DNA from: Streptomyces sp. V3I7
GTDB lineage: Bacteria; Actinomycetota; Actinomycetes; Streptomycetales; Streptomycetaceae
Direction of reading: 5' to 3'
Assembly: GCF_030817495.1 (NCBI RefSeq)
Contig: NZ_JAUSZK010000001.1
Span: 4,071,001-4,135,000 of the forward strand
DNA: 64,000 nucleotides
Positions 12,470-26,143 of the stretch are shown one piece after another; within the stretch, counting starts at the first letter, position 1; each line of letters starts with the position of its first letter. The notes under the pieces are model-generated. The model was given only the letters and a program-made list of their open reading frames with translations. It ran no database searches and was not told the DNA's origin. The position numbers were made by a program, and so were the translations under genes.

Positions 12470-12492
12470 TTGTCGGTGGGGCGCCCTAGACT
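12470..12492 (+). promoter_or_regulatory. PafBC-type DNA-damage promoter of pcrA
   Basis: TTGTCGGTG (12470-12478), exactly eight bases, then TAGACT (12487-12492): this matches the RecA-NDp/PafBC promoter consensus of actinobacteria (TTGTCRGTG-N8-TANNNT). The -10 ends nine bases before the pcrA ATG, so the leader would be almost absent. Expression is predicted to rise on DNA damage independently of LexA. Confidence 0.85.
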
Positions 12493-12501
12493 CGGAGAGC
12501 G

Positions 12502-15000
12502 ATGAGCAGCCTCTTTGACGACAGCTTCCTGGCGGACCTCCAGGCCCCCCGCGGCCGTGCGGAGGAACCGCCGCCGCCCGAGGACGACCACGCTCCGGAG
12601 CCGATTCCGGACGATCTGTTCGGCGGGAAGTTCGACCTGCCTCCGGACGGCGCCGGCGCCGGCCGTGACGCCTACTACCGCGACGGCGCCCCGCGCCCCG
12701 TCGTCGACCCCGCCGCGCTCCTGGAGGGGCTGAACGACAACCAGCGCGCGGCCGTTGTCCACTCCGGCTCGCCGCTGCTCATCGTGGCCGGTGCGGGCTC
12801 CGGCAAGACCCGTGTGCTCACCCACCGCATCGCCCACCTGCTCGGCGGGCGGCATGTGCACCCGGGGCAGATCCTCGCGATCACCTTCACCAACAAGGCC
12901 GCGGGCGAGATGAAGGAGCGCGTCGAGCAGCTCGTCGGCCCGCGCGCGAACGCCATGTGGGTCATGACCTTCCACAGCGCGTGCGTGCGCATCCTGCGCC
13001 GCGAGAGCAAGCGGCTCGGCTTCACGTCGTCGTTCTCGATCTACGACGCCGCCGACTCCAAGCGCCTGATGTCCCTGGTCTGCCGTGACCTGGACCTCGA
13101 CCCCAAGCGCTTCCCGCCGAAGTCCTTCAGCGCCAAGATCAGCAACCTCAAGAACGAGCTGATCGACGAGGAGGACTTCGCCGCCCAGGCCACCGACGGC
13201 TTCGAGAAGACCCTCGCCCAGGCCTACGCGCTGTACCAGTCGCGGCTGCGTGAGGCGAACGCCCTCGACTTCGACGACCTGATCATGACGACGGTCAACC
13301 TGCTCCGCGCCTTCCCGGACGTCGCCGAGCACTACCGCCGCCGCTTCCGCCACGTCCTCGTCGACGAGTACCAGGACACCAACCACGCCCAGTACGCTCT
13401 GGTGCGCGAACTGGTCGGCACCGGCGAGCATGCCTCCGGGGACGCCGACGTCCCGCCGGGCGGGTCCGACCTGCCGCCCGCCGAGCTGTGCGTCGTGGGT
13501 GACGCCGACCAGTCGATCTACGCCTTCCGCGGCGCGACCATCCGCAACATCCTCCAGTTCGAGGAGGACTACCCGGACGCGACGACGATCCTGCTGGAGC
13601 AGAACTACCGCTCCACGCAGACGATCCTCTCCGCCGCCAACGCGGTCATCGAGCGCAACGAGTCCCGCCGCCCCAAGAACCTGTGGACCAACGCGGGTAC
13701 GGGTGCGGCGATCACCGGCTACGTCGCCGACACCGAGCACGACGAGGCCCAGTTCGTCGCCGAGGAGATAGACCGCCTCACGGACGCGGGCGAGGCGAAG
13801 GCCGGCGACGTCGCCGTCTTCTACCGCACCAACGCCCAGTCCCGTGTCTTCGAAGAGATCTTCATCCGCGTCGGCCTGCCCTATAAGGTCGTCGGCGGTG
13901 TCCGCTTCTACGAGCGCAAGGAGGTCCGGGACGTCCTGTCGTACCTGCGGGTCCTGGCCAACCCCGAGGACTCCGTCCCGCTGCGCCGCATCCTCAACGT
14001 CCCCAAGCGTGGCATCGGCGACCGCGCGGAGGCGATGGTCGACGCGCTCGCCCAGCGCGAGAAGATCAGCTTCGCGCAGGCGCTGCGCCGGGTCGACGAG
14101 GCGTACGGCATGGCCGCGCGCTCGACCAACGCTGTCAAGCGCTTCAACGTGCTGATGGAGGAGCTCCGTACGGTCGTCGAGTCCGGCGCGGGACCGGCGA
14201 CCGTCCTGGAGGCGGTGCTGGAGCGCACCGGCTATCTCGCCGAACTCCAGGCGTCCACCGACCCGCAGGACGAGACGCGGATCGAGAACCTCCAGGAACT
14301 CGCCGCCGTGGCGCTGGAGTTCGAGCAGGAGCACGAGGAGGGGGAGCAGCCCTCGCTGTCCGACTTCCTCGAGAAGGTCGCCCTGGTCGCCGACTCCGAC
14401 CAGATCCCCGACGAGGAGGACGGCGACGGCGTCATCACGCTGATGACGCTGCACACCGCCAAGGGCCTGGAGTTCCCGGTCGTCTTCCTGACCGGCATGG
14501 AGGACGGCGTCTTCCCGCACATGCGCGCCCTCGGCCAGACCAAGGAACTGGAGGAGGAGCGGCGCCTGGCGTACGTCGGCATCACGCGCGCGCGGGAGCG
14601 GCTGTACCTCACGCGCTCGGCGATGCGCAGCGCCTGGGGCCAGCCGTCGTACAACCCGCCCTCCCGTTTCCTGGAGGAGGTGCCGGAGTCCTACCTGGAG
14701 TGGAAGCGGACGGGACCCGTCGCCAAGTCCGCCGGACCGGCGTCCGGCATCGCGGCCTCGCTGTCCTCGTCCCGCTCGCGCTCGTCGGCGGCAGGCGCCT
14801 CCGGGTTCGCCACGCGCAGGACGTCGGACAAGCCGGTGGTGGCCCTGACCGTCGGCGACCGTGTCACGCACGACCAGTTCGGGCTCGGCACCGTCGTCGC
14901 GGTGGCGGGCGTGGAGGACAAGGCCCAGGCGACGATCGACTTCGGCGACGGCAAGCCGAAGCGGCTGCTGCTGCGGTACGCGCCGGTGGAGAAGCTCTAG
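12502..15000 (+). CDS. pcrA: ATP-dependent DNA helicase PcrA/UvrD
   Basis: An 832-residue superfamily 1A 3'-5' helicase acting in nucleotide excision repair and removal of RecA or stalled polymerase from DNA. After an acidic/Pro-rich leader (1-75), motif I is VAGAGSGKTRV (about 95-105), motif II is VLVDEYQDTN (about 286-295), motif III is VVGDADQSIYAFRGA, and motifs V/VI are TLHTAKGLEFPVVF and VGITRARERLYL. The last 50 residues (VGDRVTHDQFGLGTVVAVAG onward) are the Tudor-like PcrA C-terminal domain that binds RNA polymerase. It is a single gene with a PafBC-type promoter upstream and a GC hairpin after the stop. Confidence 0.97.
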   Translation: MSSLFDDSFLADLQAPRGRAEEPPPPEDDHAPEPIPDDLFGGKFDLPPDGAGAGRDAYYRDGAPRPVVDPAALLEGLNDNQRAAVVHSGSPLLIVAGAGSGKTRVLTHRIAHLLGGRHVHPGQILAITFTNKAAGEMKERVEQLVGPRANAMWVMTFHSACVRILRRESKRLGFTSSFSIYDAADSKRLMSLVCRDLDLDPKRFPPKSFSAKISNLKNELIDEEDFAAQATDGFEKTLAQAYALYQSRLREANALDFDDLIMTTVNLLRAFPDVAEHYRRRFRHVLVDEYQDTNHAQYALVRELVGTGEHASGDADVPPGGSDLPPAELCVVGDADQSIYAFRGATIRNILQFEEDYPDATTILLEQNYRSTQTILSAANAVIERNESRRPKNLWTNAGTGAAITGYVADTEHDEAQFVAEEIDRLTDAGEAKAGDVAVFYRTNAQSRVFEEIFIRVGLPYKVVGGVRFYERKEVRDVLSYLRVLANPEDSVPLRRILNVPKRGIGDRAEAMVDALAQREKISFAQALRRVDEAYGMAARSTNAVKRFNVLMEELRTVVESGAGPATVLEAVLERTGYLAELQASTDPQDETRIENLQELAAVALEFEQEHEEGEQPSLSDFLEKVALVADSDQIPDEEDGDGVITLMTLHTAKGLEFPVVFLTGMEDGVFPHMRALGQTKELEEERRLAYVGITRARERLYLTRSAMRSAWGQPSYNPPSRFLEEVPESYLEWKRTGPVAKSAGPASGIAASLSSSRSRSSAAGASGFATRRTSDKPVVALTVGDRVTHDQFGLGTVVAVAGVEDKAQATIDFGDGKPKRLLLRYAPVEKL

Positions 15001-21056: not shown

Positions 21057-22415
21057 TCAGCACAGGGCCACCGCCTCCCCCGTCCCCTCCGGCCAGGCCG
21101 TCAGCGGAGTGAAGCCCCGGTGGCCGCACTCGCCGAAGACCGTGACGGGGGCGCCGCCGGACAGCGCGACCAGCCGCCACAGGCCCGGGCGGTTGCGGGC
21201 GGCCGGGCTGAGCGGCAGCGCCGTGTCCCCTTCCGCGTCCGCCAGTTGCCAGGAGCCGCCGTCGGGGACCGGCACGACCCGGCCGAGCGTCACCGGTACC
21301 GCGTCCAGCCAGGGATCGTCCCGCAGCGCGTCGCCGTAACGGGCCGCCGCCTGGGACGTCGTGACTCCCGGCGGGCGTATCGCCGCGGGCGCCGCCGGGC
21401 CGATTCGCTCGCCCAGGGACGCGCGCGGCTGTCCGGCGCCGGGATGGACGGACACCTCCGCCTCCAGGGCCAGCCCGACCGGCAGCGCCAGTTCGGGGGC
21501 GCGGCCTCCGGCGCCGTAGGACAGGAGCAGGCAGGTGCGGTCCGAATCGGCGCCGTACAGCCAGATCCTGCGGGTCGTCAGCTTCGTGTCCGCCGTGTCG
21601 TACTGGGCGAGGACCAGCCAGCGGTCGCGCACCGGCGGACCGTCCGCCGCGGTGGGCAGGCCGACGCGGGAGCGGACCGTCGCCGAGAGGGCGTCCGGGA
21701 GCCGGTCGCGGCGCAGCCAGCCCTGGTCGAGGAGGTGCAACAGGGCGCACTCCTCCAGCAGCCGCACCGGCCAGCCGGGGCCGGACCCCGGTATCGCCCC
21801 CAACTCCCGCACGCGCGCGGCCAGTCCGGGCGCCTGCGCGTCCACCATGCGGGCGGCGGTCTCCTCCCACAGTCCGTACCCCGCCCGCTCCGCCGAGGCC
21901 AGGCCGCCGCGCAGCAGGTCGGCGAGGCGCTGCTCCAGCTCCGTGGCGCCCGCGGTGACCCGCTCGGCCCGGCGCTCCGCCCTGCGCCGCGCCGCCTCGG
22001 GATCAGCGGACCCGGACGCCGGACTCCCGGCGTCCGCCGCCCGCTTCTCCTGCGCCCGCTGCCGCCGGCCCGCCAGCCACTGCCCGGCCCAGTCCGGCGC
22101 TCCGCCCGCCGCCGGCACCGCCCCGTCCCCCTCCGCCCACAGCAACAGCAGGCCGAGCGCGTGCTTGCACGGGAACTTCCGGCTCGGGCAACTGCACTTG
22201 TACGCGGGCCCGGGCGCCCCCGCGATGTCGACGACCGTCTGGTACGGCTTGCTGCCGCTGCCCTTGCACAGTCCCCATACCGCCCCCTCCTGCGAACAAC
22301 CCGCCTCGGACCACGGCCCTGCCGTGCCGAGTTTGCTTCCCGCTTTGCGTGACAAGGCGTCAGGCGCCAGTGCCAGCACCTGGTCCGCGGTCCAGCGCAC
22401 CCCCTGCTGAGTCAT
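21057..22415 (-). CDS. SWIM zinc-finger family protein
   Basis: A 452-residue protein with an N-terminal SWIM zinc finger: Cys74, Cys76, Cys83 and His85 in KCSCPSRKFPCKHALGLLLL, the CxCxnCxH pattern. Two further Cys (40, 50) precede it. SWIM domains bind DNA or protein. The remaining 350 residues are Arg/Ala-rich without a recognised domain. It is first in the SWIM-DUF5691 operon and divergent from MoxR-DUF5682-VWA. I chose ATG 22415 over 22445 because the -10 TACCTT of a PafBC-type promoter ends only seven bases upstream, giving a leaderless or near-leaderless mRNA. Confidence 0.88.
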   Translation of the reverse strand: MTQQGVRWTADQVLALAPDALSRKAGSKLGTAGPWSEAGCSQEGAVWGLCKGSGSKPYQTVVDIAGAPGPAYKCSCPSRKFPCKHALGLLLLWAEGDGAVPAAGGAPDWAGQWLAGRRQRAQEKRAADAGSPASGSADPEAARRRAERRAERVTAGATELEQRLADLLRGGLASAERAGYGLWEETAARMVDAQAPGLAARVRELGAIPGSGPGWPVRLLEECALLHLLDQGWLRRDRLPDALSATVRSRVGLPTAADGPPVRDRWLVLAQYDTADTKLTTRRIWLYGADSDRTCLLLSYGAGGRAPELALPVGLALEAEVSVHPGAGQPRASLGERIGPAAPAAIRPPGVTTSQAAARYGDALRDDPWLDAVPVTLGRVVPVPDGGSWQLADAEGDTALPLSPAARNRPGLWRLVALSGGAPVTVFGECGHRGFTPLTAWPEGTGEAVALC

Positions 22416-22422
22416 GTCATCG

Positions 22423-22445
22423 AAGGTAGATCCCGCCACTGACAA
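22423..22445 (-). promoter_or_regulatory. PafBC-type DNA-damage promoter of the SWIM-DUF5691 operon
   Basis: On the minus strand: TTGTCAGTG (22445-22437), eight bases, then TACCTT (22428-22423), a full match to TTGTCRGTG-N8-TANNNT. Transcription would start at or one base before the ATG at 22415. Confidence 0.85.
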
Positions 22446-22493
22446 TCGGTCCGGCGGGCACGTTTGTGCAGGTCAGAGCGATTGTCAGTGGCG
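22434..22493. promoter_or_regulatory. Perfect 15-bp inverted repeat of back-to-back damage promoters
   Basis: CGCCACTGACAATCG (22434-22448) and its exact complement (22479-22493) are separated by 30 bases. Each arm contains one TTGTCAGTG upstream element pointing outward, so the same activator could drive both operons from one region. Confidence 0.85.
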
Positions 22494-22504
22494 TGGTGCA
22501 CGGT
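22482..22504 (+). promoter_or_regulatory. PafBC-type promoter of the MoxR-DUF5682-VWA operon (weaker -10)
   Basis: TTGTCAGTG (22482-22490), eight bases, then CACGGT (22499-22504). The upstream element is perfect but the -10 has C in place of the first T. The MoxR ATG is 44 bases further on, with a GGAGGGGG ribosome site. Confidence 0.65.
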
Positions 22505-22547
22505 GGACACCAGATCCGAACCGGCCGAGCTGGAGGGGGCCTCAGCC

Positions 22548-23747
22548 ATGTCCGTCACCGCTGCACCGACGACGACCGAACCGAGCCGCGACCATTCCTC
22601 ACCCGCGAACGCGACGCCCGCGAGGGAGACACCCGTGAGCGAGACACCTGCGAGCGAGACACCTGCGAGCGAGGCGCTGCGCCCGCACGCCGAGGAGGCC
22701 TTCGCCGCCGAACTCGCCGCGCTGGCGGCCCAGGACGACCGGCCGCGCCCGGCCCGCTGGAAGCTGTCGCCGTGGGCCGTCGCCACCTACCTGCTCGGCG
22801 GCACCCTGCCGGACGGCACGGTGATCACACCGAAGTACGTGGGCCCGCGCCGCATCGTCGAGGTCGCGGTCACCACGCTCGCCACCGACCGCGCCCTGCT
22901 CCTGCTCGGCGTGCCCGGCACCGCGAAGACCTGGGTGTCCGAGCACCTGGCGGCCGCGGTCAGCGGCGACTCGACCCTGCTCGTGCAGGGCACGGCGGGT
23001 ACGCCGGAGGAGGCCATCCGCTACGGCTGGAACTACGCGCGGCTGCTCGCCCACGGCCCGAGCCGCGACGCCCTCGTGCCCAGCCCCGTCATGCGCGCCA
23101 TGTCCGAGGGCATGACCGCCCGGGTGGAGGAGCTGACCCGCATCCCCGCCGACGTGCAGGACACGCTGATCACGATCCTGTCCGAGAAGACGCTGCCGAT
23201 ACCCGAGTTGGGGCAGGAGGTGCAGGCCGTGCGCGGCTTCAACCTCATCGCCACCGCCAACGACCGCGACCGCGGGGTCAACGACCTGTCCAGCGCCCTG
23301 CGCCGCCGCTTCAACACGGTGGTGCTGCCGCTGCCGGAGAGCGCCGACGCCGAGGTCGACATCGTCTCGCGCCGCGTCGACCAGATCGGCCGCTCCCTCG
23401 ACCTGCCGGCCGCACCCGACGGCATCGACGAGATCCGCCGTGTCGTCACCGTCTTCCGCGAACTGCGCGACGGCATCACCGCCGACGGCCGCACGAAGCT
23501 GAAGTCGCCCAGCGGCACGCTGTCCACGGCCGAGGCGATCTCCGTCGTCACAGGCGGCCTCGCTCTGGCCGCCCACTTCGGCGACGGGGTGCTGCGGCCG
23601 GGCGACGTCGCCGCGGGCATCCTCGGGGCCGTCGTGCGCGACCCGGCGGCCGACCGCGTCATCTGGCAGGAGTACCTGGAGGCCGTCGTCCGCGAGCGCG
23701 ACGGCTGGAAGGACTTCTACCGCGCCTGCCGGGAGGTGAGCGCGTGA
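22548..23747 (+). CDS. MoxR-family AAA+ ATPase
   Basis: A 399-residue AAA+ ATPase. After a Thr/Glu/Pro-rich leader with repeated SETPA units (about 30-42), Walker A is GVPGTAKTW (121-129). The helix-2 insert region precedes VEELTRIPADVQDTLITILS, the Walker B/ring-contact segment, where the usual LDE is VEE. Sensor 1 is FNLIATANDRDRGVNDLS and the arginine-finger region is SALRRRF. MoxR proteins act as chaperones with VWA proteins to insert metals or remodel complexes, and a VWA partner is two genes downstream. Its stop overlaps the next start. Confidence 0.92.
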   Translation: MSVTAAPTTTEPSRDHSSPANATPARETPVSETPASETPASEALRPHAEEAFAAELAALAAQDDRPRPARWKLSPWAVATYLLGGTLPDGTVITPKYVGPRRIVEVAVTTLATDRALLLLGVPGTAKTWVSEHLAAAVSGDSTLLVQGTAGTPEEAIRYGWNYARLLAHGPSRDALVPSPVMRAMSEGMTARVEELTRIPADVQDTLITILSEKTLPIPELGQEVQAVRGFNLIATANDRDRGVNDLSSALRRRFNTVVLPLPESADAEVDIVSRRVDQIGRSLDLPAAPDGIDEIRRVVTVFRELRDGITADGRTKLKSPSGTLSTAEAISVVTGGLALAAHFGDGVLRPGDVAAGILGAVVRDPAADRVIWQEYLEAVVRERDGWKDFYRACREVSA

Positions 23748-26143
23748 GCGCATCCGCAGAGGGGACGGCCTTCGCCTCCGGACCGCTGCTGCTCGGCGTA
23801 CGGCACCACGGGCCGGGCTCGGCGCGAGCGGTGCGGGCCGCGCTGGAGGCCGCCGCGCCGCGGACGGTGCTCATCGAGGGGCCGCCCGAGGCCGACGCGC
23901 TGATCCCGCTGGCCGCCGATCCGGAGATGAAGCCGCCGGTCGCCCTGCTCGCCCACGCCGTGGACGAACCCGGCCGCTCGGCCTTCTGGCCGCTCGCCGA
24001 GTTCTCCCCGGAGTGGGTGGCGATCCGCTGGGCCCTGGAACACGGGATCCCGGCCCGCTTCATCGACCTCCCGGCCACGCACTCGCTGGCACTCCGCGCG
24101 GCGGAGGAGGCGGAGGCGGCAGCCGAGGATTCCGGTGATTTGGCCGACGCGGACGCCCCGGAGCGAGACGTCCGCGTCGACCCCCTCGGGGCGCTCGCCG
24201 GGGCCGGGGGGTACGACGATCCCGAGCGCTGGTGGGAGGACGTGATCGAGCACCGTGGCGCGGGGGCGCAGGAGGGTGCCGCGTTCGCGCCCTTCGCGGC
24301 GCTCGAAGAGGCCATGGAAGCGCTCCGGGAGACGTACGGGACCGGCGGACACGATCGGGACCTCGTGCGGGAGGCTTACATGCGCCTCCAACTGCGAGCC
24401 GCCCGGCGTGAGTTCGGGGACGCCGTCGCCGTGGTGTGCGGGGCGTGGCACGTGCCGGCGCTGCGGAAGAAGGTCACCGTCGCCGCCGACCGGGCGCTGC
24501 TGAAGGGGCTGCCCAAGGTCAGGACGGACATGACGTGGGTGCCGTGGACGCACCGCCGGCTGTCCCGGTTCAGCGGGTACGGGGCGGGCATCGACTCGCC
24601 GGGCTGGTACGGGCACCTGTTCGCGGCGCCGGACCGGCCGGTCGAGCGGTGGCTGACCAAGGTGGCGGGGCTGCTGCGTGAGGAGGACCGGATCGTCTCC
24701 TCCGCGCACGTCATCGAGGCGGTGCGGCTGGCCGGGACGCTCGCCGCGATGCGCGGCCGCCCGCTGCCCGGCCTGAGCGAGACGACCGACGCCGTGCGCG
24801 CGGTGATGTGCGAGGGCTCGGACGTGCCGCTGGCCCTGGTGCACGACCGGCTGGTGGTGGGCGACGTGCTGGGGGAGGTGCCCGAGTCGGCGCCCGCGGT
24901 GCCGTTGCAGCGGGATCTGACCCGCCTCCAGCGCGGGCTGCGGCTCAAACCCGAGGCGCTGGAGCGGGAGCTGGAGCTCGACCTGCGCAAGGACACCGAC
25001 GCCGGGCGCAGCCGGCTGCTGCACCGGCTTCGGCTGCTCGGCGTCGGATGGGGCGAGCCGGTGCGGTCGCGGGGGAGCACGGGGACGTTCCGGGAGACCT
25101 GGCGGCTGCGCTGGGAGCCGGAGCTCGCGGTGCGGGTCGCCGAGGCCGGGGTGTGGGGCACGACCGTGCTCGCCGCGGCGACGGCCAGGGCGGAGGCCGA
25201 CGCCGTGGCCGCGCCGTCCCTCGCCGAGGTCACCGGGCTTGCCGAGCGCTGCCTTCTGGCCGGACTCCAGGACGCGCTGCCCGTGGTGATGCGGGTACTC
25301 GCCGACCGGGCCGCGCTCGACGCCGACGTCGGTCATCTCGCCCAGGCCCTGCCGGCCCTGGTCCGTTCCCTGCGCTACGGCGACGTCCGCGGCACGGACA
25401 CGCGCACCCTGACCGAGGTCGCCGTCGGTCTCGCAGAGCGGATCTTCGTCGGGCTGCCGCCGGCCTGCGCCGCTCTGGACGCGGACGCCGCCGCGGAGAT
25501 GCGCCGCCATGTCGACGCCGTGCACACGGCCGTGGGTCTCCTGCCGGACGCTTCCGCTGCTCACGGGCCTCGGGTTCGCTGGAGTTCGGTGCTGTGCGGG
25601 CTGTCCGAGCGGGACACGGTGCCCGGCCTCATCCGTGGGCGGGTCGTGCGGATCCTGCTCGACGAAGGGGAGCTGGCGCAGGACGACGCGGCCCGGCTGA
25701 TGGGGCTGGTGCTGTCGCCGGGGACACCACCGGCCGAGGCGGCCGCCTGGATCGAGGGCTTCGTCGGCGGAGGCGGGGGCGGGCTACTCCTGGTGCACGA
25801 CGAGCGGCTGCTCGGACTCGTCGACGCCTGGTTGACCGGCGTACCGGCCGAGGCGTTCACGGACGTCCTGCCGCTGCTGCGGCGCACGTTCTCGGCGTAC
25901 GAACCGGGCGTGCGCAGAACCCTCGGCGAACTGGTGCGGCGCGGACCGGCGGAGCGGGCGGGCGCGACCGTTGGCGGGGGCACTGGCCTGCCCGGCTTCG
26001 CCGCGGAACCGGACCGCGAGCGCGCGGACGCCGTGGTGCCGCTGGTGCGGCTGCTGCTCGGCCTCGACGAGATCGAAGCCGACGTCGGTGCCGGCGCCGA
26101 CGCCGACGCCGATGACAACGAGTATGCGGGGGTGGGGACATGA
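23744..26143 (+). CDS. DUF5682 family protein
   Basis: A 799-residue protein of unknown function. The N-terminus (LLLGVRHHGPGSARAVRAAL, then LIEGPPEADALIPLA) is diagnostic of DUF5682 and resembles a TraB/PrgY-like or esterase-like core with paired His. A second block (VVCGAWHVPAL) adds another conserved His. The second half is helical and probably repeat-like. I chose GTG 23744, which overlaps the MoxR stop (GTGA) and has GGAGG seven bases upstream; a longer frame reaching back to 22466 is only the antisense-like shadow of MoxR. It overlaps the VWA gene at ATGA, so the three are translationally coupled. Confidence 0.87.
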   Translation: MSASAEGTAFASGPLLLGVRHHGPGSARAVRAALEAAAPRTVLIEGPPEADALIPLAADPEMKPPVALLAHAVDEPGRSAFWPLAEFSPEWVAIRWALEHGIPARFIDLPATHSLALRAAEEAEAAAEDSGDLADADAPERDVRVDPLGALAGAGGYDDPERWWEDVIEHRGAGAQEGAAFAPFAALEEAMEALRETYGTGGHDRDLVREAYMRLQLRAARREFGDAVAVVCGAWHVPALRKKVTVAADRALLKGLPKVRTDMTWVPWTHRRLSRFSGYGAGIDSPGWYGHLFAAPDRPVERWLTKVAGLLREEDRIVSSAHVIEAVRLAGTLAAMRGRPLPGLSETTDAVRAVMCEGSDVPLALVHDRLVVGDVLGEVPESAPAVPLQRDLTRLQRGLRLKPEALERELELDLRKDTDAGRSRLLHRLRLLGVGWGEPVRSRGSTGTFRETWRLRWEPELAVRVAEAGVWGTTVLAAATARAEADAVAAPSLAEVTGLAERCLLAGLQDALPVVMRVLADRAALDADVGHLAQALPALVRSLRYGDVRGTDTRTLTEVAVGLAERIFVGLPPACAALDADAAAEMRRHVDAVHTAVGLLPDASAAHGPRVRWSSVLCGLSERDTVPGLIRGRVVRILLDEGELAQDDAARLMGLVLSPGTPPAEAAAWIEGFVGGGGGGLLLVHDERLLGLVDAWLTGVPAEAFTDVLPLLRRTFSAYEPGVRRTLGELVRRGPAERAGATVGGGTGLPGFAAEPDRERADAVVPLVRLLLGLDEIEADVGAGADADADDNEYAGVGT

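Follow-up and report, generated by a model that had tools for sequence, protein, structure and literature searches.

The 132 bp between the divergently transcribed genes of a SWIM zinc-finger protein and a MoxR-type AAA+ ATPase in Streptomyces sp. V3I7 very probably hold two back-to-back promoters of the PafBC (RecA-NDp) type that co-induce both halves of a five-gene cluster upon DNA damage. The region occupies positions 22416-22547 of the stretch of 64,000 nucleotides that was analysed (the window); the SWIM and DUF5691 genes lie to its left on the minus strand and the MoxR, DUF5682 and VWA genes to its right on the plus strand (Table 1). The analysis was computational and covers motifs, positions, conservation, the genes in whose company the motif occurs, the presence of pafBC and the collinear order of SWIM, DUF5691 and MoxR in other organisms. 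At this level of sequence and comparative evidence the interpretation given in a preliminary description of the region is supported, with induction as a prediction.

The promoter type itself is already known: PafBC is activated by single-stranded DNA (ssDNA) and makes the housekeeping RNA polymerase use promoters that have a -26 element instead (PMC11804915), with the consensus tTGTCRgtg-8 nt-TannnT (PMC5656591). A new promoter type for recA of S. rimosus is named in a title of the reference list of PMC5087735, and the same paper reports a fivefold rise after UV for S. coelicolor SCO6735, which has a RecA-NDp promoter. The locus described here shares with these promoters (S. rimosus recA, mycobacterial recA P1 and SCO6735) the pattern TTGTCRGTG-N8-TANNNT in its left arm, the company of a repair regulon and the presence of PafB/PafC in the pafA locus; unlike them, it has two promoters facing outward from one intergenic region, the right one with an extended -10 that lacks TANNNT.

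Two putative outward-facing promoters in one intergenic region

Direct reading of the sequence bore out the description of a perfect 15-bp inverted repeat: each of its two arms, CGCCACTGACAATCG and CGATTGTCAGTGGCG, carries the PafBC (RecA-NDp) promoter element TTGTCAGTG, directed outward. On the minus strand TTGTCAGTG (22445-22437) is followed, after N8, by TACCTT (22428-22423) and, 7 nt further on, by the SWIM ATG; this is the geometry that had been described, except that the A of the ATG is at 22415 and not at 22416. With its -10 ending 7 nt before the start codon, the left promoter is predicted to give a leaderless SWIM mRNA. On the plus strand CACGGT (22499-22504) follows TTGTCAGTG (22482-22490) after eight bases, again as described, and the MoxR ATG at 22548 is preceded by a likely ribosome site, GGAGGGGG, at 22532-22539. 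Both arms had been assigned to the RecA-NDp type. The left promoter satisfies the strict pattern TTGTCRGTG-N8-TANNNT and for it the assignment stands; the right one has, in place of TANNNT, a conserved extended -10, TGCANNGT, and by its sequence should act like a RecA-NDp promoter as a variant class rather than as a strict member.

TTGTCRGTG is found five times in the 64-kb window, against 0.48 expected. Among the 64 TTGTCAGTG of the genome, the two of this locus are the sole divergent pair within 500 bp; random placement would be expected to give 0.016 pairs within 100 bp.

Table 1. Features of the window discussed in the text, with putative promoters and the evidence on which each entry rests
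Feature	Position	Strand	Evidence or remark
Left repeat arm, CGCCACTGACAATCG	22434-22448	-	Direct reading
Right repeat arm, CGATTGTCAGTGGCG	22479-22493	+	Direct reading
Putative left PafBC/RecA-NDp-type promoter, TTGTCAGTG-N8-TACCTT, into SWIM-DUF5691	22423..22445	-	Sequence, genome motif scan, orthologues
Putative right PafBC/RecA-NDp-type promoter, TTGTCAGTG-N6-TG-CACGGT, into MoxR-DUF5682-VWA	22482..22504	+	Sequence, orthologues, genome-wide class
Upstream element GCAGGTCAG, CAGGTC starting 13 nt upstream of right TTGTC	22468..22476	+	Comparison with relatives
Strict PafBC-type promoter TTGTCGGTG-N8-TAGACT, internal positive control	12470..12492	+	9 nt before pcrA/uvrD ATG at 12502
SWIM zinc-finger protein gene, 452 aa	21057..22415	-	Pfam PF04434, E 1.2e-05
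DUF5691 protein gene, 555 aa	19337..21004	-	Pfam PF18944, E 1.3e-170
MoxR-type AAA+ ATPase gene, 399 aa	22548..23747	+	Pfam AAA_5 PF07728, E 4.4e-37; E. coli YehL homologue, 39% identity
DUF5682 protein gene, 799 aa, GTG start overlaps MoxR stop	23744..26143	+	Pfam PF18934, E 7.9e-301; E. coli YehM homologue
VWA (CoxE-like) protein gene, 392 aa	26140..27318	+	Pfam PF05762, E 6.5e-61; E. coli YehP homologue

PafBC-type sites across the genome and a candidate class with extended -10

The strict pattern occurs 23 times in the whole genome and its reversed form not once; TTGTCAGTG alone occurs 64 times, against 3 for the reversed element. A simple rule for open reading frames (ORFs) served to call the genes downstream of the 23 strict sites; 20 were scanned with Pfam, the genes of PcrA and of the SWIM protein were Pfam-scanned as well, and one site (L002) has no usable ORF. 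Products of DNA repair or replication follow 10 of the 23 sites: RecA, UvrA, UvrB, RuvC, MgsA/RarA, DnaX, PcrA, an AlkZ-like glycosylase, UDG and an ExoIII-type nuclease. Further strict sites precede the genes of ribosomal protein S6 (followed by an ORF that probably encodes the single-strand-binding protein), of a WGR protein and of a mycothiol transferase; the other 8 products have no evident repair link or no Pfam match. Start codons of several strict-site genes lie 6-9 nt past the -10, and the distance is 7 nt for recA, uvrB, dnaX, the ExoIII-type nuclease gene and SWIM.

The genome has pafA and, in the same orientation and ~1.7 kb further along, two adjacent WYL genes whose best matches among solved structures are chains AY and AX of 7p5x, the second of which is named PafC; by this likeness and its position in the pafA locus, the WYL pair is identified as PafB and PafC. 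Judged by the genes that it precedes, the PafBC-type element marks a DNA-repair regulon in this genome. The strict motif is present in 40 of 41 genomes (this one and its relatives): in 25 genomes of the same genus there are 14-44 copies each (reversed 0-1), and among 16 genomes from other families 15 have 0-10 copies and one has 78. This last genome (G469, family f48) has many times the count of its relatives and most of its motifs among those listed are near TTGTCGGTGGTGGCGTCTAGCAT, a pattern suggestive either of a dispersed repeat or of a promoter family that has expanded. As a separate observation, genes of DrrA-like ABC transporter ATPases follow PafBC-type sites at 7 nt (L302) and ~200 nt (L020), hinting at damage-inducible export.

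The -10 of the right promoter is not peculiar to this locus. In the 90 orthologous loci with a strict right element (see below), A18 and T22 are found in all 90 and C17, the first position of the -10, in 88, giving TGCANNGT; of the TG ahead of it, T is kept in 82 and G in 88 of the 90. The genome of Streptomyces sp. V3I7 has 55 sites with A and T at the right distance (reversed 1). TG stands one or no base before the -10 in 17 of 22 TTGTCAGTG sites with a non-T first base versus 1 of 23 TA sites (Fisher p 3.8e-7), and likewise in only 1 of 10 TTGTCGGTG sites without T. The class was spotted after viewing these sites and then tested in 20 other genomes with a shifted-TG control: TTGTCAGTG-N5-TGN-VANNNT was found 204 times versus 8 times with the TG shifted, and 5 of these 8 control matches also bear TG at the usual place. 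TGVANNNT, the subtype of the window, occurs 91 times in the 20 genomes and 0 times reversed, the reversed pattern being the only control for this count.

Sites with an extended -10 are present in 20/20 genomes. Genes behind them encode a DnaQ-type exonuclease as well as the Lhr helicase (at 6 nt), DinB polymerase IV (at 7 nt) and HolA (with an in-frame ATG at 7 nt); NuoI-like, methyltransferase, AraC-type and further genes are also among them. Of the 21 TTGTCAGTG sites that lack A and T, 10 were examined, and one of these is followed by PriA. By these sequences, a weak -10 aided by TG looks like a second class of PafBC-type promoter, which in this genome would supply 17 further candidates beyond the 23 strict sites.

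Conservation of the promoter elements and probable origin of the divergent layout

Of 121 Streptomycetaceae genomes, 118 have a MoxR match, which in 117 is a high-scoring orthologue; the upstream DNA of all 117 orthologues was read, with site counts anchored on MoxR. When orthologous clusters were searched, as had been proposed in the preliminary description, the motif was found ahead of them: the strict right element at 90, the strict left element at 66 and a pair within 200 bp at 55 of the 117 loci, with the reversed motif at none. The right element is present at 79 of the 97 loci with a recognised SWIM gene and at 11 of the 20 without. Among the 80 nearest relatives, a MoxR match could be used at 77 named Streptomyces loci: the right element is present in 76, the left in 75 and both in 74 of them.

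The T, A and T of TANNNT are kept at all 66 left sites, with a start codon (ATG or GTG) 7 nt further on in 62 and 6 nt further on in 4 of them; in 63 of the 66 this codon is in frame with SWIM, with no intervening stop. The N-termini of the SWIM orthologues vary in length while the distance between promoter and start codon stays, as leaderless transcription requires. Among 21 genomes searched for an exact divergent pair with a spacer of 34-62, 10 have one such pair each, always at this locus. Start-to-start distances between the two TTGTCAGTG in relatives bunch near 34, 46, 58 and 70, in steps of ~12 bp; here the elements lie within 22437-22490.

Within the class, 74 of 345 genomes have a close MoxR match, 42 of these being outside the Streptomycetaceae. 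In 16 of the 19 outgroup stretches that reach upstream of MoxR, all three of SWIM, DUF5691 and MoxR could be recognised and share a strand; in the remaining three, DUF5691 was not seen in two and SWIM was not seen in one (contig end). DUF5682 and VWA follow MoxR in L277, the only outgroup stretch that covers this downstream part. In 9 of 18 outgroups SWIM is preceded by a TTGTC-type element (at most 2 mismatches over both boxes) that has TANNNT at N8 and, after another 7-8 nt, a GTG; the match is perfect in L285, and reversed-sequence controls were never better than 3 mismatches. The motif is therefore conserved upstream of orthologous genes, including these 9 of 18 outside the family. In one of the other nine (L282) a site with two mismatches stands 53 nt ahead of the SWIM start. 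A scan of 40 outgroup regions within 1.3 kb of MoxR gave two single TTGTCGGTG and no pair, as the SWIM gene is more distant from MoxR in these organisms.

Since SWIM, DUF5691 and MoxR are collinear in the stretches read outside the family, the two-promoter layout looks specific to Streptomycetaceae, and by the gene order in the outgroups it is probably a later rearrangement. The simplest reading is that an ancestral single damage-inducible operon would have been split in Streptomycetaceae, with each half keeping a PafBC-type promoter. Paralogous clusters are suggested by a second MoxR gene in many Streptomycetaceae genomes (43-49% identical among the matches listed) and by additional DUF5682 genes, a second or even a third.

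Comparison of the orthologous spacers also brought out the upstream element. CAGGTCAG is frequent 13-14 nt upstream of TTGTC and is also found before the AlkZ-like (L011) and lhr (L315) promoters; it is possibly an upstream contact of PafBC or of sigma region 4. CAGGTC-type words, counted loosely, are present in 71 of 117 regions, and the reversed sequences yield 29 of them, only the fixed spacing of 13-14 nt being telling. Most genomes of genus g1 have the element next to the right promoter; in g7, g13, g16 and a few g1 genomes it accompanies the left one. On a SWIM DNA tree (168 rows, 112 with the CAGGTCAG element) right versus left placement needs only 2 changes and is thus an old fixed change; inversion of the spacer as a phase switch was rejected on this ground.

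Proposed mechanism, alternatives and place among known systems

DNA damage would expose ssDNA, PafBC would bind it and join the RNA polymerase with the housekeeping sigma factor, and TTGTCAGTG (at about -29 to -21) would replace the normal -35. The left promoter would then give a leaderless SWIM-DUF5691 mRNA (start 22415, minus strand) and the right promoter, from its extended -10 TGCANNGT, a MoxR-DUF5682-VWA mRNA with a 5' leader of ~37 nt; the five products would be made together. Induction of the cluster, its dependence on PafBC at this locus and the lengths of the leaders are what we infer, and so is the idea that the proteins act jointly. Pairs of MoxR and VWA proteins are known to act as chaperone-like remodellers, and the five proteins probably form a damage-inducible AAA+/VWA remodelling complex, which would be required once DNA is damaged.

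Several points weigh against this reading. The right promoter departs from TANNNT: its TTGTCAGTG matches, but with CACGGT as its -10 the strict pattern fits it only if one mismatch is allowed. PafBC-type sites also precede genes with no obvious role in repair (NuoI-like, isochorismatase, ABC transporter, glyoxalase). In the family, SWIM is recognised beside MoxR at only 97 of the 117 loci; the strict right element is absent from 27 and the strict left from 51, mostly in genera g2, g3, g5 and g14 (g2 and g5 lack both elements, g3 and g14 often lack one side). Of the left sites, one has a start codon at 7 nt that is not in frame, and two have no recognised SWIM gene. The exact divergent pair with a spacer of 34-62 was not found in 11 of the 21 genomes searched, and the leaderless match before SWIM is absent from the other 9 of 18 outgroup operons. 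In the literature, an initial search reported in PMC9380542 did not find the PafBC motif of M. smegmatis in S. venezuelae, suggesting non-conservation, and the authors of PMC6637917 attribute the induction of repair genes upon TopA depletion to LexA.

The right -10, with a C at -12 in 88/90 orthologues, could mean that promoter activity is confined to the left arm, with the right TTGTCAGTG as a symmetric remnant or an accessory PafBC site and with MoxR transcribed from another promoter. We consider this unlikely: the right element is kept in more loci than the left (90 against 66), 11 of the 20 loci without a recognised SWIM gene included, its A18, T22 and TG are conserved while the spacer varies, and the same extended -10 class lies 7 nt and 6 nt before the dinB and lhr starts and recurs in every one of the 20 genomes. 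That ClgR rather than PafBC mainly drives these promoter elements is quite unlikely, even though PMC5656591 cites ClgR as recognising mycobacterial recA P1 and clgR deletion as impairing induction: in vivo binding and structures put PafBC on the element (PMC6789036, PMC11804915), and pafBC is present in this genome.

Control of the cluster by DNA supercoiling (or LexA) instead of PafBC would follow what has been proposed for S. coelicolor SCO4803-4806 and for S. coelicolor repair genes. Disruption of SCO4804 (815 aa), a proposed topA activator, lowers topA promoter activity and the level of TopA, and SCO4804 and its adjacent genes rise about eightfold on TopA depletion (PMC8120823); this topA paper was the only one that a literature search returned for SCO4801-4806. 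By order and size, SCO4803-4805 are probably the MoxR, DUF5682 and VWA genes: the order MoxR, DUF5682, VWA and secreted-like protein is that of S. parvulus (L274), and the distance from the SCO4803 stop to the SCO4804 stop, 2551 nt from the published 103 bp and 815 aa, is within the 2321-3243 nt of the 77 named loci, with MoxR assigned by order. sucC is SCO4808. The match rests on order and length, not on sequence, and the 171 bp given in the paper after sco4804 do not agree with the overlapping genes of L274, unless VWA has been annotated with too late a start.

Transcripts of recA, recX, lexA, dnaE2 and uvrA rise on TopA depletion too, which would speak for LexA, and yet they also rise on topA over-expression (PMC6637917), so that a damage or ssDNA signal fits better than supercoiling as such. 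In Streptomyces sp. V3I7 a promoter of the PafBC type also precedes recA and uvrA, and there is no LexA box (tCGAAC-N4-GNNCGa, PMC9380542) with up to 2 mismatches in 22416-22547, on which ground LexA control of the cluster was rejected; matches at this tolerance elsewhere mean little, as so loose a pattern is over-abundant across the window (163 versus 107 expected). Control by supercoiling or LexA is very unlikely. Should the match to SCO4803-4806 be right, what was published as a supercoiling response may be one of PafBC to ssDNA. Most improbable of all is that the perfect 15-bp arms form one palindromic operator or hairpin for a symmetric regulator of both operons: beyond the 9-mer the same 3-nt inner flank is found in just 12 of 55 pairs of relatives, the start-to-start distance of these pairs ranges from 24 to 180, single arms persist alone and each arm has its own -10 in its own direction.

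Three of the five proteins have E. coli relatives: yehL-yehM-yehP(-yehQ) of K-12 (L361) encodes homologues of MoxR, DUF5682 and VWA in the same order (39%, 26% and 36% identity). YehQ, which follows yehP, is annotated as a SWIM protein and gave no BLASTP alignment with the SWIM protein of this cluster, and DUF5691 has no significant match among the five Yeh proteins compared. The literature matches listed contain no functional work on yehLMPQ and no paper on DUF5682 or DUF5691 by name. MoxR-vWA ternary conflict systems (VMAP, iSTAND, FtsH, beta-propeller) likewise consist of MoxR, VWA and a third partner; unlike in these, the third partner here is DUF5682, and the MoxR orthologue is present in 117 of the 121 genomes of the family. 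For the third component Pfam gives DUF5682 only, with no VMAP, iSTAND, FtsH or beta-propeller, and bpMoxR reaches 23.1 bits at a cut-off of 27. No PADLOC-DB model matched any of the five cluster proteins, by which a reading as an anti-phage defence system was rejected, and NCBIfam gave only matches far below cut-off (MadB, GvpN, ViaA). DUF5682 may resemble TraB/TIKI-type proteins.

No earlier mention of the back-to-back pair, the extended -10 class or the assignment of the cluster to a damage regulon is among the literature matches listed, a weak test of absence from print. According to PMC9380542, the existence of a RecA/LexA-independent damage response in Streptomyces remains to be shown; the strong enrichment of the motif in 25/25 genomes of the same genus bears on this question. 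It is conceivable, if rather speculative, that streptomycetes have a RecA/LexA-independent PafBC regulon with two classes of promoters, the TANNNT class (frequently leaderless) and one whose extended -10 begins with a base other than T, and that both classes, back to back, induce a conserved five-protein MoxR-VWA-DUF5682-SWIM-DUF5691 machine, which would be a core, previously unrecognised effector of the DNA damage (ssDNA) response that feeds back on topoisomerase expression. A cluster of families without known function, whose MoxR is so widely kept in Streptomycetaceae and which has E. coli relatives for three of its members, gains a likely setting in the response to damaged or single-stranded DNA.
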